Part shown: one piece after another, positions 8,290 through 28,168 of the stretch
Position numbering within the stretch: the stretch's first letter is position 1
Layout of the letters: every line of letters starts with the position of its first letter
Assembly (NCBI GenBank): GCA_019241525.1
Contig: JAFAWY010000053.1
Coordinates: 1-42,517, forward strand
Length of the DNA stretch: 42,517 nt
Direction: 5' to 3'
Source: Pseudonocardiales bacterium
GTDB lineage: Bacteria; Actinomycetota; Actinomycetes; Mycobacteriales; Pseudonocardiaceae
Program-made: the position numbers and the translations under genes
Notes under the pieces: model-generated
The model's database searches: none
Told to the model about the DNA's origin: nothing
Seen by the model: the letters and a program-made list of their open reading frames with translations, nothing else

Positions 8290-10107
8290 CTACGGTAAGG
8301 GCTCGTCATCAAAAAGGTTCGGCTGTTGCTGGCGGTAACGGGTGCGATCAACCGACTTGAGGTGTTCGAATTCAGGTGGCCGGAACAACCCGTGCAAGCT
8401 ACAGCGGGGAGCGAGCGAGCCGGCCGCGTCGAGGAGGGCATTAACCGCCTGGCGAGCACCCTCATTCGCTCCTTCCATGGTGGCGAGGTTGATGTCGGTG
8501 CGGACCCAATCACCGGCAAGGAATAGATTCCGGATCGCGGTGGCCGATTCGGGCCTGTCGGCCCAGGAACCTGCGTTCTGGATGAACAGTGGCTCGTCGT
8601 TGGCCACATGGGAAGTGCCGGAACCGGTGATCGCCGGGTCAAGAAACCACGAATGAAGCAGATCGTCGGTCAGCGTATTCTCACCGGTATCGTTGAGGTG
8701 CGCCTTGATCTGCGCCCACACCTCCCGGGCAATCTCGTCGGGGGAGCAGTCCTTGGCGGGCTTGTTGTTGACGCTTCCAGCCGTGTTCCAGTCGGAGATT
8801 ATCGTGGACAGGCAGTCCAGGGCAGCGCCATCGCCGTAATCACGAAAGTCGCGCCGCCAGAACTGGGCTTGGCTGATCGAGGTAAGCGCCCACGGTGAAT
8901 CGACATAATTGACATGTCCTGGCGCCAGCGGCAACCTGCGACGTAGATAGAACATTAATCCGTTCATCCAGTCGGTACGGAGTTGGCGTATTCTTTGCAG
9001 GCCCGGGTCCGCGGCAAGCACTTCAGGATTAAGCAACTGCCCGAAACGTTCGACCGGGACCGCCGACACGAACCAATCCGCAGTAATGGGCCGAGTTTGC
9101 CCTGCGGGATCACGTACCGTCACCGCAGCTATTTCATCCTTCACCACGTGCAGTCTCTCGACTTTATGGCCTACGCAGAAGTCAACGCCGAGGGCACGCA
9201 AACGGGCTACCCATGGATCGACCAGTCGCTCACTGGTGGAGCCATTGAGCAGCCGGTCCACACTGCCCCCGGGCTCGTTACCTCGACCCAAGGAACTCCA
9301 TATGACGGCCTCACCTACCAACCCGACAGTATGTGCACTTGCCTCGTGCGCCTTGGTAGCCACCAGATTTTGAGTAGCGCCGTGTACGAATAATCGGCGG
9401 TACTCCTGCGACATTGTGTCAGCACGAAGGAAGTCACTCCAGGTGACATGCTCCCACTGGCCGAATCGACGCTCGTCACAGCTCGTCACGTACACAAGCA
9501 TCCGGCGTGCGAAGTAAGCAGCCTCCTGAGCAGGCAGCCGGAATGCTTCGCGCAGCCCCGCCGCAATACTCTCCACCAAACTTTCCGGCGTATAGAACAC
9601 CGGATTAGGCGAAGGCGAGAACGGTAAGGGAACTGTTAAATCGGGGCCTGCTGAACGGGAGAGCCGGTATGCGCTTGCATGGACCAGGTTACCCCAGGCG
9701 CCTTGTTGATTTCCCGCGAACGGGATCCGGCGCATGGTGTCACCAAGATTCCAATAAAAGCCAGGAAAAAACCGGAATCCATGCTCGCCGGGTAGCGGCC
9801 GACGGCCGGAAGTCCCACTTCGCGGCACTGGGATGCTCCGCGCCTTCCCGCCCAGCGCCTTGCGCTCATAGACCGTGACCCGGAAGTTTCGCTCGGCCAG
9901 TTCGAGCGCCGCAGACAACCCAGCCACTCCGCCGCCGAGTACAGCCACCCGCGGTCCGGACGGTGCTACCCCGGCCGATGCTGGTATGCCCACCGACCCG
10001 GACATGGTCGCCAGACCCGCCAATGCCGTACCGCGGAGAAACTGCCTGCGCGACCGACCTGTATGCACTGGGTCTTGCCACATGCTAGCTGCTCGCCCCC
10101 GCCCCAT
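8290..10107 (-). CDS. Tat-exported phytoene desaturase-like FAD amine oxidase
   Basis: A 605-residue flavin oxidoreductase of the amine oxidase/phytoene desaturase/hydroxysqualene dehydroxylase superfamily. The N-terminus has a twin-arginine signal (SRRQFLRG, R20-R21) with a hydrophobic stretch, so the folded holoenzyme is probably exported. The FAD fold follows with VLGGGVAGLSAALELAE (57-73) and GGKAR (86-90). The family element GEHGFRFFPGFYWN (107-120) and the C-terminal FAD motif with AGDWVRTDINLATMEGA are present. Start choice is open: ATG 10107 or ATG 10083 (residue 9), neither with a strong RBS. Both leave the Tat signal intact. The substrate is unknown; polyisoprenoid-like lipids are plausible for this family. 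It converges with the P450 gene, 39 bases apart. A joint lipid or terpene modification role is conceivable but unproven. Confidence 0.85.
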   Translation of the reverse strand: MGRGRAASMWQDPVHTGRSRRQFLRGTALAGLATMSGSVGIPASAGVAPSGPRVAVLGGGVAGLSAALELAERNFRVTVYERKALGGKARSIPVPRSGTSGRRPLPGEHGFRFFPGFYWNLGDTMRRIPFAGNQQGAWGNLVHASAYRLSRSAGPDLTVPLPFSPSPNPVFYTPESLVESIAAGLREAFRLPAQEAAYFARRMLVYVTSCDERRFGQWEHVTWSDFLRADTMSQEYRRLFVHGATQNLVATKAHEASAHTVGLVGEAVIWSSLGRGNEPGGSVDRLLNGSTSERLVDPWVARLRALGVDFCVGHKVERLHVVKDEIAAVTVRDPAGQTRPITADWFVSAVPVERFGQLLNPEVLAADPGLQRIRQLRTDWMNGLMFYLRRRLPLAPGHVNYVDSPWALTSISQAQFWRRDFRDYGDGAALDCLSTIISDWNTAGSVNNKPAKDCSPDEIAREVWAQIKAHLNDTGENTLTDDLLHSWFLDPAITGSGTSHVANDEPLFIQNAGSWADRPESATAIRNLFLAGDWVRTDINLATMEGANEGARQAVNALLDAAGSLAPRCSLHGLFRPPEFEHLKSVDRTRYRQQQPNLFDDEPLP

Positions 10108-14798: not shown

Positions 14799-16673
14799 TC
14801 AGGCGCTGCGCTCGGTGATGCCAAGCAGGTGAGTAGTCAGCCAATGCACGGTTTCCCGCACGAATAACGCACGGTTACTGGTACTGAGAATTTCGTGCCC
14901 ATCATCGGCCAGCACCAGGTAGCCGGGGGAAGCGCCGTGGTCGCGCAGTGCCGCAACGAGTTGCTCGGCCTCGATGGTGGGCACGTTGGTGTCGTGCGCA
15001 CCATGCACCACCAGAAGGGGCGCTCTCAACTGCCCAATGCGGTGGATCGGCGACAGCTCACGCAGAAGTTCCGCATCTCGTCGGGGATCACCGTATTTGG
15101 TCACGGCGGCTGCGGAGATCCACGGCTCGGTATGCGTGTAGAACGTGTGAAAGTCGGAGATACCGCATACATCGACACCGACCCGGAACAGCTGAGGATA
15201 AGTCACCATCGCGGCAACGGTCAGGTAACCACCGTAGGAACGGCCACCGCAGCCAATCGCGGCGGGATCAGCGAGCCCGGCGTCCACCAGGTATCGGACC
15301 GAATCGGAGACATCGTCGATCGCGGCAAACCGCAGAGAGCCGATGTCCGCATTGACGAACCGGTGCCCGAAACCCGAGGAACCACGCACGTTGGGCGCGA
15401 ATACCGCAACGCCATGGCTGACCAACGCTTGATAAAGAGGGTTGAAGATGGGCCGCTCCTGCGCCTCTGGACCGCCGTGCAACCAGATCAGCGTGGGTAC
15501 TGTTCCCAGAGCCCCAGCCGGCCGGTAGAGCCATCCGGACAGCGTGAGGCCGTCTTGGGCCTGCCACCGATGCAGCTCCGGCCGGGCTGGCGCATCCGGC
15601 GGCCACGGGGCAGCCGCGAAGGGAGCCATCCGCACCGACTCAGCAGGCGGCAGTGGGTAGCGCAGGACGTGCGGTGGTTCGGCACCAGATTCCACGGCAA
15701 GGACCAGCGACCCACCGTCCTGGGCGAAGGCGCAGCCGGTCACCACCTCGGCCGGTGGCGGCGGCAGCACCCGATCTTCCCCGCCGGCCAAGTCGATGAG
15801 CTCCAGCTCGCTTCGCCCCTCGACGTTCCACACCGCAAGAATCGCCCGGCCGGTCGGCTCGAGGGCAAACCTGTCCAGCTCGACGCTGTCGCGTGCGGCA
15901 ATCAGCTCGGCAGCATCGGGATAGCCGGCAGCCACTCTCGGCAGCGCCAGCAGCGCAGTGAACTCGCGACCTGCATCGGTATGCAGGTAGATCGTTCGGG
16001 CATCAGGCGCGAAACGCGCGTCGGCGACGGTGGCATCGGCACCGAGCAGCTCAACGCAGCTGCCGGCTCGGGTGTCGACGAGCAGCAACCGGCGGCCACC
16101 ACGGCGGCCGACGCGCACCACGGCGTAACGCCCGTCGTGGCTGAAGGTGCACACCACCGCGGCGGTGCCACTGACCAGCGGGTGGCGACGTGCCGAGCAC
16201 ACGTCGACCGCGTACGCGGTAAGCCAGGCCGGGTTGGTGTCGCTGCTTTCCACCAGGCCAACGACACGGCCGCCAGGCTGCCAGGGACCCAGCGACGCCA
16301 TGCCCACCGGAGTTCCCGCGATGATCCGGGCATCGGTGCCGTCCGGGCGCAGCGCGCGGACCACCGTGCGCTCGCCGCCGCCGGCCGCTGTGGTCAGGCA
16401 CAACCACTCGCCATCAGGTGACCAGCTGACCGCCCGGACATAGTCCGGGCCGGTGTCCAGCCGCACCGGGGGACCGGACTCGGTGACCGGGGTGAGCCAA
16501 ACGCGGGGAGCGCCATCCCGGTCGGAGACCACGGCAAGGGTACGACCATCTGGGGACAGCGCGGGCGAGATACAGGTCTCGGCGGCGAGCCAGTCAAGGG
16601 ACGGTGAGGCGGCGGCCAGCCGGTCCAGCCGGCGGCGTGCGAAGTCACTGGCCCTCTCCAAGCTCGCATCCAC
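14799..16673 (-). CDS. S9-family prolyl oligopeptidase-like serine peptidase (operon member)
   Basis: A 624-residue cytoplasmic peptidase with no signal sequence. The N-terminal two thirds form a beta-propeller-like region with repeated SPDG/TDAGREF-type blades. The C-terminal alpha/beta hydrolase domain starts near residue 395 (LSGWLYRPAG), with the oxyanion region WLHGGPEAQ and the catalytic triad S479 (GRSYGG), D561 (GAHDTNVP) and H593 (DDGHEIL). It should therefore cleave short peptides or acyl-amino acids. The GTG start at 16673 directly follows the amidotransferase stop with no gap. An AGGAG-type RBS lies inside the upstream gene, so the two are tightly co-expressed. In this operon it may process or recycle the amidated product. 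Confidence 0.9.
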   Translation of the reverse strand: MDASLERASDFARRRLDRLAAASPSLDWLAAETCISPALSPDGRTLAVVSDRDGAPRVWLTPVTESGPPVRLDTGPDYVRAVSWSPDGEWLCLTTAAGGGERTVVRALRPDGTDARIIAGTPVGMASLGPWQPGGRVVGLVESSDTNPAWLTAYAVDVCSARRHPLVSGTAAVVCTFSHDGRYAVVRVGRRGGRRLLLVDTRAGSCVELLGADATVADARFAPDARTIYLHTDAGREFTALLALPRVAAGYPDAAELIAARDSVELDRFALEPTGRAILAVWNVEGRSELELIDLAGGEDRVLPPPPAEVVTGCAFAQDGGSLVLAVESGAEPPHVLRYPLPPAESVRMAPFAAAPWPPDAPARPELHRWQAQDGLTLSGWLYRPAGALGTVPTLIWLHGGPEAQERPIFNPLYQALVSHGVAVFAPNVRGSSGFGHRFVNADIGSLRFAAIDDVSDSVRYLVDAGLADPAAIGCGGRSYGGYLTVAAMVTYPQLFRVGVDVCGISDFHTFYTHTEPWISAAAVTKYGDPRRDAELLRELSPIHRIGQLRAPLLVVHGAHDTNVPTIEAEQLVAALRDHGASPGYLVLADDGHEILSTSNRALFVRETVHWLTTHLLGITERSA

Positions 16674-18452
16674 CTAGATCTTCCTCTCCTGTAACCACAT
16701 TTCCAGCAGGGCGACCTGCCATAAGGCATTGGATCCCAGCGTTGTCCGCTCAGTGTTGGGACTGGCAAGCATGCGATGCAACCAGTCCGGGCGGAAAAGA
16801 CCGCGATCCTTGGCCACCGGATCGGTCACGGCATCACGAACCCGGTCCAGCAACGATCCCGACAGGTGGCGGATGGCCGGTACCGGGAAGTACCCCTTGG
16901 GCCGATCGATGATCGTATCCGGGATCACACCACGGCTGGCTGCCTTCAGCACGCCCTTGCCCCCGCTGGCGAGCTTGAGCTCGGGCGGGCAGGCGGCGGC
17001 GAGTTCCACCAGCTCATGATCGAGGAACGGAACCCGCGCTTCGAGTGCCCACGCCATGGTCATGTTGTCCACCCGCTTGACCGGGTCATCGATCAGCATG
17101 ATCGTGGTATCCAGCCGCAACGCCGCATCCAGCGCGGTGTCAGCGCCCGGCGCGGCGAAGTGGCTGTCAATGAACGCCTGGCTGTGATCCCGGGTAAAGA
17201 AGTCACCGGCGGCCAGCCACTCGGGCTCCAGCAAATCGCTCATCGCGCTGTGCGGGCGGTCGACAAACACTGCCGCGTACGCTGCGGCGGCCTGCTCCCG
17301 CGGCACGTTGGCCAGCGGCGGGTACCAGTCGTAGCCGGCGAACACCTCGTCGGCTCCCTGCCCGGACTGCACCACGGTCACCGAGCGGGATACCTCCTGC
17401 GCCAGCAGGTAAAACGCGACGCAGTCATGGCTGACCATCGGTTCACTCATCGCCTCGATGGCCGCGTCCACCGCAGGCAGGAGACGATCCGAGGTGATCA
17501 TGATCTTCTGATGGTCGGTGCCGAAGTGCGCCGCGACCAGGTCGGAGTACTGGAATTCGTCCCCCGACTCCCCACCGGCAGCCTCGAACCCGACGCTGAA
17601 CGTGCGCAGCTGCTGGCCGCCCTCCGCGAGCAGCGCCACCACCAGGCTGGAGTCGATCCCACCGGAAAGCAGGATGCCCACCGGGACATCGGCCACCATG
17701 CGCCGCTCCACCGCCACCCGCAACGCAGCCAGCACTGCAGCCGGCCAGTCGGTGATATCGGAGCGGCGGGAGAACACCGGCCGCCAGTACTGGCGGTCTT
17801 CTTGACGGCCGTCGGGGTGCACGGTGCGGACCGTGGCCGGGGGCAGCTTGCTGACTCCGGCGAGGATCGTACGCGGAGCAGGCACGACGGAGTGGAAGCT
17901 CAGATAGTGGTGCAAGGCCACCGGATCGATCGAGGTATCCAGCCCACCTGCGGCAAGCAGCGCGGGCAACGTCGAGGCGAAGCGCAACCGGTTGCCGGTC
18001 TGGGTCAGGTACAGCGGTTTGATCCCGAGCCGGTCACGGCCGAGCACCAACCGGCCACTGTCGCGTTCGAGTACCGCGAAGGCGAACATGCCCAGGAAGT
18101 GATCCACGCAGCGGGTGCCCCACCGGTGATAGGCCTTGAGCAGTACCTCGCTGTCGGAATCGGAGAAAAACCGGTAGCCGGCGGCACGCAGCTGCGCACG
18201 CAGCTGGCGATAGTTGTAGATCAAGCCGTTGAACACCACGGTGAGCCCCAGCTCCGGATCCACCATGGGCTGCACCGCCCGATCGGACAGGTCGATGATC
18301 TTCAACCGGCGGTGTCCGAGCGCGGTGCACCCGCTTGCGTGGATGCCCCAGCCATCGGGGCCGCGGCGGCGCAGCGCGGCGGTCATGGTGGTGACCGCAT
18401 CGACGTCGGCCGGGACGTCGTCGAATCTGATCTCTCCGGTGATGCCGCACAT
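16674..18452 (-). CDS. Asparagine synthetase-like (NAGGN-type) amidotransferase
   Basis: Glutamine-dependent amidotransferase of 592 residues. It hydrolyses glutamine in an N-terminal Ntn domain and transfers ammonia to an adenylated carboxylate in a C-terminal synthetase domain. Start ATG 18452 makes Cys2 (MCGITGEIRF) the N-terminal nucleophile after Met removal; a strong RBS (AAGGAG) precedes it. Key elements are RRGPDGWG, NGLIYNYRQLR, the PP-loop SGGIDSS (about 262-268), SGQGADEVFAGYDWY and RVPFLDHELVE. Overall pattern fits the trio-type amidotransferases (TIGR03104) of N-acetylglutaminylglutamine amide synthesis more than housekeeping AsnB. It follows the ligase/ATP-grasp gene by 13 bases. 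Its likely substrate is a product of that ligase, not free aspartate; this is inference from context. Confidence 0.9.
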   Translation of the reverse strand: MCGITGEIRFDDVPADVDAVTTMTAALRRRGPDGWGIHASGCTALGHRRLKIIDLSDRAVQPMVDPELGLTVVFNGLIYNYRQLRAQLRAAGYRFFSDSDSEVLLKAYHRWGTRCVDHFLGMFAFAVLERDSGRLVLGRDRLGIKPLYLTQTGNRLRFASTLPALLAAGGLDTSIDPVALHHYLSFHSVVPAPRTILAGVSKLPPATVRTVHPDGRQEDRQYWRPVFSRRSDITDWPAAVLAALRVAVERRMVADVPVGILLSGGIDSSLVVALLAEGGQQLRTFSVGFEAAGGESGDEFQYSDLVAAHFGTDHQKIMITSDRLLPAVDAAIEAMSEPMVSHDCVAFYLLAQEVSRSVTVVQSGQGADEVFAGYDWYPPLANVPREQAAAAYAAVFVDRPHSAMSDLLEPEWLAAGDFFTRDHSQAFIDSHFAAPGADTALDAALRLDTTIMLIDDPVKRVDNMTMAWALEARVPFLDHELVELAAACPPELKLASGGKGVLKAASRGVIPDTIIDRPKGYFPVPAIRHLSGSLLDRVRDAVTDPVAKDRGLFRPDWLHRMLASPNTERTTLGSNALWQVALLEMWLQERKI

Positions 18453-18465
18453 CAGCAAGCTCCTT

Positions 18466-21012
18466 TCACCGCAGGATCCAGGTGTCCTTGGCGCCGCCGC
18501 CGCGCGAGGAGTTGACGATCATGCTGCCGTGGCAGGCGACCCGGGTCAGAGCGGCCGGCGGCACCTCAGCCCGTTCACCGAGCAGCACGAACGCGCGCAG
18601 GTCGATCGCGCGCGGTTCCAGACAGTCGCCCGCGAACGTGGGATGCGTGGACAGGGAAATCAAGTCCTGAGCGACCCAGTTCTCCGGGTGCGCCCGGACG
18701 GCGGTGGCGAGTTCGGCCAACTCTGACCGGTCGGCAGCCGGTCCGATAACGACGCCGTGCCCACCGGAGCCGTCCACCGGCTTGAGCACCAGCTCGTCGA
18801 GCCGGTCCAGCACGTGGACAAGCTGCAGCGGGTCGGCGCAGGGATAAGTCGGCACCTGGGGGAGTAGCGGCTGTTCACCCAGGTAGTACGTGATCATGTC
18901 GGGCACGTAGGCATAGACGCGTTTGTCGTCGCCGAGCCCGTTGCCCAGCGCGTTGAGCAAGCTCACCCGGCCATCAGCCAGGGCCGCGCAGATCGCGGGC
19001 CCGATGCGCCGGCCGTCCGCCCCGGTCGCCTCGAGCAGGGTCTGCTCGTCGAGCCGCCGGTAGAGCACGCACAGCCGCTGATCCCCGGCGTACACCCCGC
19101 TATCGGTAACGGTCAGTTCTGCCGGGGTCACCAGCCGCAGACCCATCTGGTCGGCCAGCAGCTGATGCTCGTAGAAAGCGGCGTCGATCGGGCCGGCGCT
19201 GAGCACGGCGATCGTGTCGTCACAGGCGCCTTCCGGAACTGCAGCCAGCAGCGTCTTGCGCAGCAGTTCGGGCACCCCTTCCAGGGGAACGACGCCGGCG
19301 GGTGGCTCCAGAGCGGGTAACACACTGCGCACCAGCCGCCGGCTGGTCATCGCGTACCCGATGCCCGAAGGCACCCGCAGGTTGTCTTCGAGGACCAGCC
19401 AGCGGTGGGCGCTGTCACGTACCAGATCGATACCGCTGACGGCGGCCCGTACCGTGTCTGGAGCCGCCAACGCCCCCAAACGGCTCCAGCCAGGCGAACT
19501 GTCGACCACCGACGCCGGTAACACCCCATCCCGGATGGCCGACCGCCGGCCGTAGGCGTCATGCAGGAACGCCTCCAGCGCACACACCCGCTGGATCAGA
19601 CCCGGCGTCAGCATCGCCCAGTCCTCGGCGGTCACGATGCGCGGTACCAGATCCAGCGGGAACAGCCGATCCGGCTCGTCGTCGGACACCCGGAACGTCA
19701 CACCCCGAGCCCGCTGCTCGGTGTGCATGGCAGCAACCGCTGCATTCATGCCCGGTGCCCCCAACCGGTCGAGTGCTCGGAACAGCCACCCGTAGTGCGG
19801 CACCACGCGACCGCCTACCTCGACTGCCTCGTCGTAACCGGAACACCGGTATCCATTGAGCAAAGCCGGCGTTACCGGCACCGTGATGGGTGGGGTGCGG
19901 GGCAGCGATTCTCCGCGGGTCAGCGCCAGCAGATCGCGCACCACGTCGGTGAGCTCACCGCGCCGGCCGAACGTCCGGCGCTGGCGAGCTGCTGAGCTGC
20001 CCGCGGCAAGCGAGCGCTTGGACAGCTCAGCGACCTGCTTCCAGTCGCCGAAAGCATCCAGCTCCGGTCGCAACTCGCTGACCAGGCGTTCGATCAGCAG
20101 CGATGGCGGCACGAGAACCGGCCTGCCGTTACCAGCAAGGTCGACAAGGTCCCCCTCCAACCCAGACCGGGCGGCCCGCCAGGTCGCCGCCCGCAGCAGC
20201 TCATGGCGGATCTGGGGAAACGGCTTGCCTTCCTCGACCCATCCGCGGGCCCGCTGCACCAGCGCCCGGAACAATCCGGCGATGAGCACGACGTCATCCA
20301 CCATCGGGCAGGCATCACAGATCCGCAATTCGACGGTGGGCAGGTGCGACGACGGGCGGATGTCGAAATACACCATGCCGGGGTCGCTGATCGTTCCGGA
20401 GGTAACCAGGTCAGCCACCATGGCGTCGTAGTCGGCGGCGTTGCGCATGGGCCCTGGTGGCCCGGCGGTTGGCCAGCGCTGCCAGACCATGCAGCGGTAG
20501 CTGGCGTAGCCGCTGTCGATCCCGCGCCAGTACGGTGAACTGGCCGACAGCGCAAGGAACAGCGGTAGGTAAGGCGACACGTGCTGCACCACGGCAACCG
20601 CGACGTCCCGATCGGGCACGTCGACGTGCACCTGAGCGCCGCAGATGTGCTGCTCCCGGACCAGCATCTGGTACTCGTGCTGCATCCGCTCGTAGCGCGC
20701 GCCCGCCGAGATGTTCGTGCCGACCAGGTCCACCAGCGGGACAGCGCCGGCTGCCACCACGCCCAGCCCGAGTGGATCAGCCACTTCGGTCAACCGGCGG
20801 CGCAGCCGGCACAACTCCGCCCGCAGCTCGTCGAGGCTCTCACACGGCAACGTGTTGGCCTCAACCAGCGACCGCTGCAGCTCGGGAAAGAAAGAATCGC
20901 CCTCCAACTGCGCGAGCATGGCATCGACAGCCGGCGTGGCTTCGCACGTCTGCAGATCGACGAGGTGAAACTCCTCCTCAACACCGATACGCGGGATCGC
21001 AAAACTACCCAT
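18466..21012 (-). CDS. Carboxylate-amine ligase (GCS2)/circularly permuted ATP-grasp fusion
   Basis: An 848-residue fusion of two ATP-dependent ligases. Residues 1 to about 355 are a glutamate-cysteine ligase type 2 (YbdK-like) domain: GVEEEFHLVD (10-19), QVHVDVPDRD and the metal-site-like RPSSHLPTVELRICDA. Residues about 375-848 are a circularly permuted ATP-grasp domain: HYGWLFRALDRLG, DLVPRIVTAEDW, LEDNLRVPSGIGYAM (about 538), NALGNGLGDDKRVYAYVPDM, LVLKPVDGSGGHG and the terminal NSSRGGGAKDTWIL. Both halves look intact. Together they could form two amide bonds in sequence. The ATG at 21012 has only a weak AGG upstream. It leads an operon with the amidotransferase and S9 peptidase and lies 117 bases downstream of the heme peroxidase. 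The product is unknown. Confidence 0.9.
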   Translation of the reverse strand: MGSFAIPRIGVEEEFHLVDLQTCEATPAVDAMLAQLEGDSFFPELQRSLVEANTLPCESLDELRAELCRLRRRLTEVADPLGLGVVAAGAVPLVDLVGTNISAGARYERMQHEYQMLVREQHICGAQVHVDVPDRDVAVAVVQHVSPYLPLFLALSASSPYWRGIDSGYASYRCMVWQRWPTAGPPGPMRNAADYDAMVADLVTSGTISDPGMVYFDIRPSSHLPTVELRICDACPMVDDVVLIAGLFRALVQRARGWVEEGKPFPQIRHELLRAATWRAARSGLEGDLVDLAGNGRPVLVPPSLLIERLVSELRPELDAFGDWKQVAELSKRSLAAGSSAARQRRTFGRRGELTDVVRDLLALTRGESLPRTPPITVPVTPALLNGYRCSGYDEAVEVGGRVVPHYGWLFRALDRLGAPGMNAAVAAMHTEQRARGVTFRVSDDEPDRLFPLDLVPRIVTAEDWAMLTPGLIQRVCALEAFLHDAYGRRSAIRDGVLPASVVDSSPGWSRLGALAAPDTVRAAVSGIDLVRDSAHRWLVLEDNLRVPSGIGYAMTSRRLVRSVLPALEPPAGVVPLEGVPELLRKTLLAAVPEGACDDTIAVLSAGPIDAAFYEHQLLADQMGLRLVTPAELTVTDSGVYAGDQRLCVLYRRLDEQTLLEATGADGRRIGPAICAALADGRVSLLNALGNGLGDDKRVYAYVPDMITYYLGEQPLLPQVPTYPCADPLQLVHVLDRLDELVLKPVDGSGGHGVVIGPAADRSELAELATAVRAHPENWVAQDLISLSTHPTFAGDCLEPRAIDLRAFVLLGERAEVPPAALTRVACHGSMIVNSSRGGGAKDTWILR

Positions 21013-21129: not shown

Positions 21130-22719
21130 CTACTGCCCGCGGCTGGCTGGGTCCACCCTGGCCCAGCGGAGCAAATCAGTGATCGTGAATGTGCCGGGAG
21201 CCTGCCTGGGTAGCGACGGCCGGAAGCCGGTGTTGAGGTAGGAAGACGAGTCGAGCTGGAGCAGACCGATGATCGCCTCCGCGACGATCCTGCCCCCCAC
21301 GGGGCCCAGCTGCGCGCCGTTGTGGAAGACGCTGGCCTCGCGCAGGATGTAGTACCACAGCGGGGTGCTGGCATCCAGGCCCAGGCGGTATTTCCGCAGC
21401 TCGGGGAAGTGCTCGGAGCCGAGCACCGGTGATCCCGTCGATGCGGCGATGCGCTGGCCCGATGGCATCGACCAGGTCAGGTGCCGCAGCAGGGTGCGCT
21501 GCGGTAGCGCGGTCGGCCCGTTGTGGCTAGGAATGGCCGCCAGCGGCAAGCGGAACAGCGGTGAGGAGATATTGGTGTCGATCAGCTTGTTCGGCCGGAC
21601 GTGCTGAGTCTGATCGCCGCCGAAGTCGAAGAAGGTCTGCCAACCGACGAACCGCCGCCGGGCCCGCGCTCCACCGCGCAAGTCGACCGGGTCGTCCTGG
21701 TGCTCGCCGGCCGGATCGAAGATGAACCCGAAAAATGCGGGCGCACCGGTGGCCGGATTGCCGCCAGGATCGCCGTGCAGGTTCACCCGGTAGGAAGGCC
21801 GGACAATGCTGTGCCCGAACCGGTAGGCACCGGTTTGAAATTCCACCGGCATGCTCGGCTTGGTGAAGCGGTACCAGCGCCGACCGTTGCGCAGGATGTC
21901 ATCCACCAGCGAGTGCCCGACGACCTGTGGCAGGAACTGGTTCACCACGATCCACTGCCAGTGCAGCGTGATCAGGCGCCGGCTATCGGCGAAGGCGTCA
22001 CCGGGCCGGTGGTCGGCCCGGTGCGCATCCACGGCCCGGTTGTGGGCCAGCAGGAACGCCGCGTGCAGGCCCGCGACGATGAGGTTCTCGTCATTGCGCG
22101 GGTCAGCGATGACCGCGGTCATATCCCGGTTGCGGGGCAGGTCTTCGAATAGCCCACCACTTTCCACCCGCAGCTTGGCGCGGTCGGATGCCTCGTACAG
22201 GTGCGGGCTGACCGCCGGCCCGCCACCGTAGATCGAGTCGAGATCGAACGTGGGAACCCGGGTGTTGGGAGTCGCCGCGGGGTCGGCAACCACGCCTAAC
22301 CGGGAGGTGTTGTCAAAGGTGATGTCGTGGTCGAGGAATTGCCCGAGAAACGTCGTGCCCGCGGTCATGTGGTGGACGTCTTGGTCGCGATTTCTCGGAC
22401 TGAGTTCCGGGTTGGTGATCAGCCGTACCGGTCCTTGGTTCAACGGATCTGCAGCATCCAACAATCCACCAGGCTTGCCGATATCGATCATCGCATCACG
22501 GACCGCCGAGGATCGCGGATCGGCGAAAGCGGGAAGCTGGAACATCCGGCTGAATCGGGGATCCGGCGCCGAGTTGGGCACCGGTCCCTCCACTTTCTCG
22601 GCATGCGCTTCCACGTTGTTCAATACCAGCGCACCGACCGTACCGACCCCAAGCCCGGTAAGAAATCGACGCCTGCCGATCCCACACCGATCTACCAGTT
22701 CATTACCCGATCTGGACAT
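21130..22719 (-). CDS. Tat-exported heme peroxidase (animal/cyclooxygenase superfamily)
   Basis: A 529-residue peroxidase-cyclooxygenase superfamily protein. The N-terminus has a twin-arginine signal (GRRRFLTGLG, R16-R18) followed by a hydrophobic stretch, so it is predicted to be exported folded. It has the distal motif GQFLDHDITFD with H131 and the adjacent D132 (heme-linking/calcium region), the catalytic-type R208 in ADPRNDEN, AFLLAHNRAVD, and the proximal heme ligand H303 in YRFGHSIV. All key residues are present. ATG 22719 has CGGAG upstream. It would oxidise halides, phenols or lipids with peroxide. It precedes the ligase operon on the same strand and might be its first gene, though the 117-base gap allows an independent promoter. 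Confidence 0.92.
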   Translation of the reverse strand: MSRSGNELVDRCGIGRRRFLTGLGVGTVGALVLNNVEAHAEKVEGPVPNSAPDPRFSRMFQLPAFADPRSSAVRDAMIDIGKPGGLLDAADPLNQGPVRLITNPELSPRNRDQDVHHMTAGTTFLGQFLDHDITFDNTSRLGVVADPAATPNTRVPTFDLDSIYGGGPAVSPHLYEASDRAKLRVESGGLFEDLPRNRDMTAVIADPRNDENLIVAGLHAAFLLAHNRAVDAHRADHRPGDAFADSRRLITLHWQWIVVNQFLPQVVGHSLVDDILRNGRRWYRFTKPSMPVEFQTGAYRFGHSIVRPSYRVNLHGDPGGNPATGAPAFFGFIFDPAGEHQDDPVDLRGGARARRRFVGWQTFFDFGGDQTQHVRPNKLIDTNISSPLFRLPLAAIPSHNGPTALPQRTLLRHLTWSMPSGQRIAASTGSPVLGSEHFPELRKYRLGLDASTPLWYYILREASVFHNGAQLGPVGGRIVAEAIIGLLQLDSSSYLNTGFRPSLPRQAPGTFTITDLLRWARVDPASRGQ

Positions 22720-26305: not shown

Positions 26306-28168
26306 GTGACCGCAGCGCCGCATGCCGCGACCGTCCCTGACGTCTTGTTCGACGACCCGGAGGCGGAGGCCCGCTGGCGCGCTCGATTCACCGCTCCCCG
26401 GGTCAGCCTGCCCCAATGGGCCCGCGACGTGCCGGATCGCTGCCTGTATACGTCCAACGCGTCGGGCACCTGGGAGGTCTACGCCTGGGATCGGCTCACC
26501 GGAACCCACCGGCAAGTCACCGACCGGCCGCACGGCACCCATATCGCGACCCTGACACCCGACGGCGCGCAGGTGTGGTGGTTCGCCGACATCGACGGCG
26601 ACGAGTTCGGCAACTGGGTGACCGAACCTTTCGCGGGACGACCGAAGGATCAGCCTCCTGTGCCAGCGCTACCCGGCACCGCCTTGGGCTACCCGGCCGG
26701 GATGGATCTGGGCCGGCACACCGCAGCGGTTGGTTCCGCCACCGACGAGGGCACCACGGTATGGATATCCCGCCACGGCCATGCCGAGGTCGTGTACCAC
26801 AGCGCCTACGACGCTGGAGTGGGCTCGCTATCCCGCGACGAGCAACTGCTTGCGATCGTGCATTCGGAGCACGGTGACTCCCGGCATCCCGCGGTGCGGG
26901 TGCTCAGGGTGGGTCCCGGTGACCCCGTCGACGCCGTCGCCGAGAAGTGGGATGGCCCGGGCAAGGGCCTGGAGGTCCTGGGGTTTGCCCCGGTGGACGG
27001 CGACACCAGGCTGTTGCTGGCGCACGAACGGCGCGGCCGCCAGGAACTGCTGCTCTGGGACATCGCCACGGACACCGAGACCGAGCTCGCGTTACCGCTT
27101 ACCGGCGAGCTCACCGCCGACTGGTATCCCGACGGCACGGCGCTGCTGGTCGAGGACCAGTACGCGGCCCGGTCAACGCTGCATCGCTACGAACTGGCGT
27201 CTGGTGCGCTGAGCGCGCTACAGATTCCCCGCGGAACGATCGGCGGTGCCGCAGTGCGCCCTGACGGCACCGTCGAGTACGCCTGGTCCTGCGCTGCCGA
27301 GCCACCCACCATCCGGGCGCTGCACTCCGACGGCACCGACCGCCCACTGTTGCAACCGCAGGGCGAGCCGGCACCGGGTTCGCAGCCGCTCGTCGATCAT
27401 TTCGTGCCGATCTCGCAGGGTTCGGTCCATGCACTGGTGAGCCGGCCGCCAGGCACACCAGATGGCTCCGCCGGCCGAGCCCTTCCGACGGTGTTCCTGC
27501 TGCATGGCGGACCGCACGCGGCCGACGAGGACCGGTTCTCCGCTCACCGGGCGCTGTGGCTGGACGCAGGTTTCGCCGTGGTGCACGTCAACTACCGCGG
27601 ATCCACTGGCTACGGTTCGGCCTGGCGTGATGCCATCGAGGGCCGGCCCGGGCTGTGTGAACTGGAAGACGTCGCCGCGGTGCACGACTGGGCCATCTCC
27701 AGCGGGCTTGCCGACCCGGCGCGGTGCGTGGTGGAGGGCTGGTCGTGGGGAGGCTATTTGGCATTGCTTGCCCTGGGCACGCAGCCGCAGCGGTGGGCCG
27801 CCGGGGTGGCCGGGGTGCCGCTGGCCGACTACGTCACCGCCTATGCCGATGAAATGGAACCACTGCGGGCTTTCGACCGCGCCCTGTTCGGCGGCGGACC
27901 CGACGAACTGCCCGAGCAGTACACCAGATCGTCCCCGATCAGTTACGCTGCTGATGTCCGGGCACCGGTGCTGGTGCTGGCTGGGGACAATGATCCGCGC
28001 TGCCCGATCCGGCAGATCGACAACTACCTGGCCCGGCTCGCCGAGCTCGGCAAGCCCTACCGCTACTACCGCTACGACGCCGGACATGGATCGCTGGTGG
28101 TGGCCGAGAACTTGCGGCAGGCAGCCGCGGAAGTGGCTTTCGTCCGCGAGGTGCTGCGCAGCGTTTGA
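26306..28168 (+). CDS. S9-family prolyl oligopeptidase-like serine peptidase (second copy)
   Basis: A 620-residue cytoplasmic serine peptidase of the S9 family, distinct from the one at 14799-16673. A propeller-like N-terminal part (LYTSNASGTWEVYAWDR, TPDGAQVWWFADIDGDEFG) precedes an alpha/beta hydrolase domain. That domain has FLLHGGPHAADEDRF, NYRGSTGYG and the triad S480 (GWSWGG), D563 (DNDPRCP) and H594 (DAGHGSL). Start GTG 26306 gives the normal family N-terminus. The bases before it (CACTATCAGGGA) look like a -10 with a very short or absent leader, so translation may be leaderless. It is followed after 63 bases by the ACT-GNAT gene on the same strand, a probable co-transcription unit. 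Confidence 0.9.
   Translation: MTAAPHAATVPDVLFDDPEAEARWRARFTAPRVSLPQWARDVPDRCLYTSNASGTWEVYAWDRLTGTHRQVTDRPHGTHIATLTPDGAQVWWFADIDGDEFGNWVTEPFAGRPKDQPPVPALPGTALGYPAGMDLGRHTAAVGSATDEGTTVWISRHGHAEVVYHSAYDAGVGSLSRDEQLLAIVHSEHGDSRHPAVRVLRVGPGDPVDAVAEKWDGPGKGLEVLGFAPVDGDTRLLLAHERRGRQELLLWDIATDTETELALPLTGELTADWYPDGTALLVEDQYAARSTLHRYELASGALSALQIPRGTIGGAAVRPDGTVEYAWSCAAEPPTIRALHSDGTDRPLLQPQGEPAPGSQPLVDHFVPISQGSVHALVSRPPGTPDGSAGRALPTVFLLHGGPHAADEDRFSAHRALWLDAGFAVVHVNYRGSTGYGSAWRDAIEGRPGLCELEDVAAVHDWAISSGLADPARCVVEGWSWGGYLALLALGTQPQRWAAGVAGVPLADYVTAYADEMEPLRAFDRALFGGGPDELPEQYTRSSPISYAADVRAPVLVLAGDNDPRCPIRQIDNYLARLAELGKPYRYYRYDAGHGSLVVAENLRQAAAEVAFVREVLRSV

Follow-up and report, generated by a model that had tools for sequence, protein, structure and literature searches.

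We report an operon of a Pseudonocardiales bacterium that encodes a fused ligase, an AsnO-type amidotransferase and an S9 peptidase. With a probability of roughly 0.45, we read it as a variant of the N-acetylglutaminylglutamine amide (NAGGN) pathway in which the last step is kept and the product carries a gamma-glutamyl cap. The more general reading, that the ligase and AsnO together yield an amidated small glutamine-type peptide, is highly probable, and the gamma-glutamyl cap itself falls slightly short of even odds. The NAGGN pathway, which Sagot et al. are said to have set out in 2010, comprises asnO, ngg and the gene for an M42 peptidase. The whole stretch of DNA that was analyzed (42,517 nucleotides; contig JAFAWY010000053.1 of assembly GCA_019241525.1) is called the window below. 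Its relevant features are as follows.

18466..21012, minus strand: fused ligase of 848 amino acids, with an N-terminal GCS2 domain (YbdK-like carboxylate-amine ligase) and a C-terminal circularly permuted (CP) ATP-grasp domain.
20158..20985, minus strand: GCS2 domain (ligase residues 10-285), assigned by Pfam; predicted to form the gamma-glutamyl bond.
18535..19644, minus strand: CP ATP-grasp domain (ligase residues 457-826), assigned by Pfam; predicted to form a peptide bond.
16674..18452, minus strand: AsnO-type glutamine-dependent amidotransferase, assigned by TIGR03104 score, tree and junction.
14799..16673, minus strand: S9 peptidase with N-terminal PD40/beta-propeller-type repeats, assigned by Pfam; predicted turnover enzyme.
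21130-22719, minus strand: animal-haem-peroxidase family protein, assigned by Pfam; twin-arginine-like signal by eye.

The ligase, AsnO and S9 peptidase ORFs are all intact and lie on the minus strand. The ligase stop codon (TGA) is followed by 13 bases (AAGGAGCTTGCTG) and then by ATG-TGC (Met-Cys), and the TAG of AsnO is followed by the GTG of the peptidase with zero gap. These junctions agree with an earlier note on this DNA, which had described a GCS2-CP ATP-grasp fusion, a 13-base gap, an amidotransferase, a zero gap and an S9 peptidase. The AsnO ORF reaches a TTG at 18458; the Met-Cys ATG lies six bases on, at 18452, and is probably the true start, judged from the Cys nucleophile that it exposes.

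The amidotransferase scored 941.4 bits against TIGR03104 (NAGGN AsnO), whose cut-off is 570.1. A quick midpoint-rooted tree of 106 rows gave 99% SH-aLRT support to the branch leading to 103 AsnO rows and placed three asparagine-synthase-like proteins of the window's own genome outside it. The score and the tree ruled out a housekeeping AsnB and bore out the earlier assignment of this protein to the NAGGN type. One AsnO group (48 rows, support 89) contained the proteins of fused-ligase loci, those of Streptomyces-type and Nonomuraea clusters with GCS2 alone, and those of loci L083 and L308. The other (54 rows, support 95) included all 42 Ngg rows and also took in a third Micromonospora type, L129, and the loci with CP ATP-grasp alone (L109, L111 and L115); AsnO of L089 lay outside both groups. 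A comparison of the 48 fused/GCS2 rows with the 42 rows from Ngg loci gave only three positions that distinguish them at the 85% level, and the two groups therefore probably act on substrates with the same acceptor end. At residue 571 (numbering of the 594-aa ORF), all 48 fused-group rows have Arg, and 98% of Ngg rows have Leu.

The other two parts that define the asnO-ngg-M42 system were not found, Ngg in the genome and M42 beside AsnO. In the window's own genome, the best match to Ngg (TIGR03103) reached 22 bits against a cut-off of 569, and none of the 10 genomes reached from fused-ligase records, Pseudonocardia dioxanivorans CB1190 (locus L180, genome G457) being one of them, had an Ngg over the cut-off; two of these 10 had weaker partial matches, the stronger with 175 bits over the ATP-grasp part. 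AsnO loci over the cut-off were then collected: 61 relatives contributed 19 loci and 396 genomes of the phylum contributed 46, which gave 62 distinct loci. Sixty were compared, two partial ones being left out; partners were detected by tblastn, and representative ones were confirmed by profile. Because the genus of the window is heavily represented among the relatives sampled, these loci cannot be treated as independent. Ngg was present in 34 of the 60 loci, 13 with M42 and none with S9, and absent from 26, this locus included, 22 of which had S9 and none M42. The loci without Ngg comprised 16 GCS2-CP fusions (16/16 with S9), GCS2 alone with S9 (four) or with neither S9 nor M42 (one), CP ATP-grasp alone with S9 (one) or without it (three), and one with S9 and no ligase.

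The Ngg/M42 and non-Ngg/S9 kits do not mix. The earlier note had held that the partner functions are supplied here by other protein families, and the GCS2-CP ligase and S9 indeed recur in a three-gene unit without M42. The operon shares with asnO-ngg-M42 (TIGR03104/TIGR03103/TIGR03106) the AsnO family and the organization as a ligase-amidotransferase-hydrolase unit, but GCS2-CP-ATP-grasp replaces Ngg (GNAT plus ATP-grasp), S9 or an EgtC-like protein replaces M42, and AsnO belongs to a separate group. Since neither Ngg nor M42 was found, we do not regard the operon as a member of that system.

Searched against Pfam, the ligase gave 194.6 bits for GCS2 and 389.9 bits for CP_ATPgrasp_2 (PF14403, gathering cut-off 32), and its residues 9-290 passed TIGR02050 (YbdK type) with 288.8 bits over a cut-off of 176.4. 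Solved relatives in the PDB are 3n6x for the CP half and YbdK (1tt4/1r8g) for the GCS2 half. Both halves hold motifs conserved across 10 aligned ligases, those of the CP ATP-grasp half including LEDN.RVPSG and NSSRGGGAKDTW. An AlphaFold model of the ligase was poor (pLDDT 61), and no reading given here rests on it. GCS2 enzymes are gamma-glutamyl ligases; for the CP ATP-grasp family we know of no settled reaction. COG2308-type CP ATP-grasp proteins are known from Anbu/alpha-E neighborhoods, and no alpha-E, transglutaminase or Ntn-protease neighbor was found among six window proteins scanned with Pfam.

The CP domains of fused ligases (30/30) formed one clade (support 97) that contained none of eight generic copies, and those of L109, L111 and L115 formed a separate clade. 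The CP half of the ligase is thus of the same domain family as the COG2308-type proteins (3n6x), but the fused halves make up a clade of their own and have AsnO as partner. The GCS2 domain is likewise shared with the YbdK, EgtA and GshA ligases and is over the TIGR02050 cut-off; here, in contrast, it is fused to CP ATP-grasp, linked to AsnO and placed in its own clade. That clade united the GCS2 domains of fused and GCS2-alone clusters (support 99 in a first tree and 98 in a wider one) and shut out all 10 other YbdK-like copies sampled; GCS2 of L129 formed a separate long branch. The idea of a GCS2 type dedicated to AsnO was dropped because the wider tree placed 12 GCS2 copies with no AsnO nearby inside the same clade (98%). 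Judged from this tree, the GCS2 type of the fused ligases is not bound to AsnO, and the AsnO-less genes (L367, L369, L371 and L373-L381) may serve another pathway. Several of their loci share neighbors, which by eye are small ORFs, an MFS-like gene and a polyketide-cyclase-like gene.

A survey of co-occurrence across genomes had been suggested beforehand as a check on the unit, and the unit held. All 10 loci of the same genus (L070-L079, L070 being the window) had ligase, AsnO and S9 in that order, the AsnO match of L071 being in two pieces and the contigs of L071 and L079 ending inside S9. Named genomes were also scanned with the alignment of ligases, which gave 582 confirmed loci; the best 80 of these, all from Actinomycetota by their titles, were examined. 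Among these best 80, AsnO lay downstream of the ligase in 77 and S9 (over 200 bits) was present in 67, and neither Ngg nor M42 was detected in the examined stretches at E 1e-15. The three lacking AsnO were L189, L197 (a 4.9-kb contig) and L210. The fused ligase was found in Pseudonocardia, Frankia, Micromonospora, Actinoplanes and others; it is rare in the phylum sample (5 of 396 genomes, one of which, G374, is not among the AsnO genomes). The flanks vary while the ligase-AsnO-S9 unit stays.

Ligase and AsnO lie as much as about 2.7 kb apart in some Pseudonocardia. Genes in these gaps (luciferase-like monooxygenases, toxin-antitoxin-like genes and others, by eye) were considered as a missing step and rejected, and no acetyltransferase was recognized in the gaps of 12 Pseudonocardia-type loci, with ORFs called in 11. 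The earlier note had also associated the upstream peroxidase with the operon. The gene is present at the position listed above, but it occurs in only two of the 10 same-genus loci (L070 and L078); it was discarded as an operon part together with a 176-aa downstream ORF (2/10 same-genus loci). A SigB-like motif, which we take to be a general-stress promoter, had upstream matches at three of 93 loci, against a mean of 0.43 and a maximum of 3 under shuffling, and is not conserved. NirB/NirD-like genes (by eye, from L074) lie upstream of the ligase in three of the 10 same-genus loci (L071, L074 and L075), and L077 has a nitrate-reductase-like ORF (by eye) near the unit. From such neighbors, a nitrogen-assimilation setting is possible in some same-genus loci.

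The S9 protein matched Peptidase_S9 with 141.7 bits and PD40 with 38.7 bits, and its catalytic residues are kept (GxSxG with Ser479, Asp561 and His593). Its nearest solved relatives are 5l8s, an amino acyl peptidase, and 8wt1, an S9 family peptidase, followed by acylamino-acid-releasing enzymes; it fell short of the Dpp5 equivalog cut-off (66 versus 900 bits). By these matches it appears most like the acylaminoacyl peptidases, which act on N-blocked peptides, and a role in turnover is predicted. A second, weak S9-peptidase match (27% identity) is located on the plus strand at about 26687-27994 of the window.

In five of the best 80 named-genome loci, S9 is absent and an EgtC-like gene directly follows AsnO. 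A family sample of 150 genomes contained 26 fused-ligase loci, of which 22 were fetched and four (L201, L203, L206 and L232) had already been examined. The EgtC-like gene was present in 15 of the 26, i.e., in these four and in 11 of the 22 fetched loci (L227 among them); seven fetched loci had S9 (L231 among them), four lacked AsnO, and none had both hydrolases. Five EgtC-like copies scored 204.5-217 bits on TIGR03442 (5/5 under the cut-off of 218.65), kept Cys2 and showed a few fixed differences from EgtC, including His to Leu at 112. Their substrate may therefore differ from that of EgtC. In a tree, the five copies formed one clade, apart from the over-cut-off EgtC that all five genomes also keep. 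Among solved structures, PDB 4zfk, named amidohydrolase EgtC, is nearest to the L232 copy.

EgtC takes off a gamma-glutamyl group, and by analogy the exchange between S9 and the EgtC-like protein fits a gamma-glutamyl-capped product made by GCS2. In one lineage, the clusters thus share with EgtA/EgtC of ergothioneine biosynthesis the logic of a GCS2 ligase and an EgtC-like hydrolase. They differ in that the EgtC-like copies of the clusters form their own clade and score below the EgtC cut-off, and in that AsnO is found instead of EgtB/EgtD, which belong to the ergothioneine pathway.

Variant clusters bear on whether one product is made throughout. GCS2-only AsnO clusters were found at six loci, with six more in the family sample, where 18 GCS2-only loci were fetched (6 GCS2-AsnO-S9 and 12 without AsnO). 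At E 1e-8, no CP ATP-grasp was detected in four genomes with GCS2-only clusters (G083, G186, G251 and G303), and no GCS2 in G054, the genome with the CP-only cluster L083. Neither domain is thus always needed, and the product probably varies. The fused ligase also occurs without AsnO, in 3 of the best 80 named loci, in 4 of the 22 family-sample loci and in L300. Tree placements, including those of the 12 AsnO-less GCS2 copies, indicate that domains and neighbors were lost or gained more than once.

In L109, L111 and L115, CP ATP-grasp stands alone beside an AsnO that groups among Ngg-type AsnO, and in this lineage it seems, from these placements, to have taken the place of Ngg. The three loci share a gene family after AsnO, whose L109 member (8562-9284) is DUF1028; the three genomes with this combination of CP ATP-grasp, AsnO and a DUF1028-type protein belong to a single family. 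For products of this type, DUF1028 may represent a third kind of hydrolase.

All 121 Micromonospora genomes had AsnO; 83 had Ngg, 22 the fused ligase and 17 neither ligase. Fused ligase and Ngg were found together in one of the 121 with ~15 expected (Fisher p 3e-12, not corrected for kinship). Clusters of the two types have different flanks in Micromonospora, which gives no support to a replacement of Ngg in place. Five fetched genomes of the 17 without either ligase had a third AsnO type. In L287-L290 and L301-L303, this type (about 900 bits) and a YbdK-like GCS2 gene converge; that GCS2 falls in another clade and is missing in L291, and ABC-transporter-like and MarR-like genes lie near these loci (by eye). 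At L300 (Micromonospora G578), the fused ligase is followed by neither AsnO nor S9, and the downstream flank is that of L293; the AsnO of G578 lies elsewhere and is of the third type (L301). AsnO followed by S9, with no ligase beside it, was observed in L308 (a plasmid of Streptomyces sp. NBC_01276) and in L089.

We propose the following series of reactions, predicted from the domains. GCS2 would link an amine, most likely the one on glutamine, to the glutamate gamma-carboxyl, such that a gamma-glutamyl cap would replace the acetyl group. CP ATP-grasp would form a second peptide bond, and AsnO would amidate the C-terminal alpha-carboxyl with nitrogen from glutamine. Fused-ligase clusters would then yield gamma-Glu-Gln-Gln-NH2, and GCS2-alone clusters gamma-Glu-Gln-NH2. 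Whenever the pool has to be lowered, S9 (or the EgtC-like amidohydrolase in one lineage) would open the product, which likely serves as a compatible solute or nitrogen store. A single product across all cluster variants is unlikely. The earlier note had named an amidated gamma-glutamyl or glutamine-type peptide, which remains the best guess in view of the EgtC exchange; for the cell-wall peptide that it also considered, nothing was found.

A broader extension, somewhat unlikely in our estimate, is that AsnO is the fixed last step in making a whole family of amidated glutamine peptides that differ in their caps and are each served by a separate hydrolase. The caps would be acetyl (Ngg), gamma-glutamyl (GCS2) and gamma-glutamyl plus an extra residue (GCS2-CP-ATP-grasp), CP ATP-grasp alone would add some further cap, and the hydrolases would be M42, S9 or EgtC-like, and DUF1028.

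The main competing explanation is that the product is NAGGN itself, with CP ATP-grasp or GCS2 coupling N-acetylglutamine, supplied by an unlinked acetyltransferase, to glutamine before amidation by AsnO. The authors of a Frankia study take NAGGN as the product, together with FRAAL2171, an Acyl-CoA N-acyltransferase that is unlinked (PMC5768760). AsnO also hardly differs between the fused/GCS2 and Ngg groups, and CP ATP-grasp can occupy the position of Ngg next to AsnO. We nevertheless consider this explanation unlikely: neither the clustered neighborhoods nor the gaps examined contain a recurring acetyltransferase-like gene next to ligase and AsnO, GCS2 enzymes are generally known as gamma-glutamyl ligases, and an EgtC-like hydrolase is ill-suited to an acetyl cap. 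Micromonospora provocatoris makes NAGGN, but the available text describes the strain with asnO and ngg (PMC8146288), and it therefore says nothing for this operon.

In ergothioneine biosynthesis, EgtA/EgtC use gamma-glutamyl as a temporary handle. If the clusters worked in this way, the ligase would add the group, AsnO would amidate, and S9 or EgtC would free glutaminamide or Gln-Gln-NH2, a scheme mirrored by the pairing of GCS2 with an EgtC-like protein and by the position of the hydrolase directly after AsnO within the unit. A hydrolase in the operon fits turnover equally well, however, and the peptidase of the Ngg kit has been proposed, in the accessible part of the report, to balance the pool (PMC5563000); we regard a temporary handle as quite improbable. 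It is very improbable that the three genes are unrelated neighbors (a gamma-glutamylation enzyme, a stray AsnO and a general S9 peptidase), as AsnO with S9 lacking a ligase (L089 and L308) and fused-clade ligases lacking AsnO are set against AsnO downstream at 77 of the best 80 of 582 ligase loci, S9 in 16/16 fused-ligase loci of the AsnO-based sample, and a unit that stays while its flanks change.

As far as the accessible text goes, a 2017 study of Frankia applied the name NAGGN to a set consisting of an AsnO (identity above 60%), a dipeptidase and an 'Ngg' whose identity was below 15% (PMC5563000). L083 has the same order as this 'asnO-dipeptidase-ngg' arrangement, with S9 and CP ATP-grasp; in that part of the text, in contrast, the ligase is taken as a low-identity Ngg, and no other fold or GCS2 is named. 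A Frankia proteome links the amidotransferase FRAAL1888, 2.2-fold up with PEG, to NAGGN, although this may not be the present AsnO (PMC5768760). The accessible parts of antiSMASH surveys count NAGGN clusters as core in Micromonospora (PMC11537254, PMC12915310), and a Streptomyces plasmid record labels GCS2, AsnO and hydrolase as glutamate-cysteine ligase, NAGGN amidotransferase and alpha/beta hydrolase. The open-licence literature searched yielded no description of a GCS2-AsnO-S9 unit and no established product for the fused ligase. The word "undescribed" in the earlier note has to be qualified, in view of the AsnO, dipeptidase and 'Ngg' of Frankia, as given in the accessible text (PMC5563000), and the AsnO named in the plasmid record.

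Actinomycete clusters with this AsnO carry NAGGN names in record annotation. In many actinomycetes, other families supply the ligase and the hydrolase, so the metabolite predicted for them may be incorrect. The EgtC-like copy may represent a second role of the EgtC fold, apart from ergothioneine. The operon also provides an inexpensive way to test what chemistry the CP ATP-grasp family performs and, if the proposed reactions are true, the fused enzyme would give this family a defined peptide-bond reaction.
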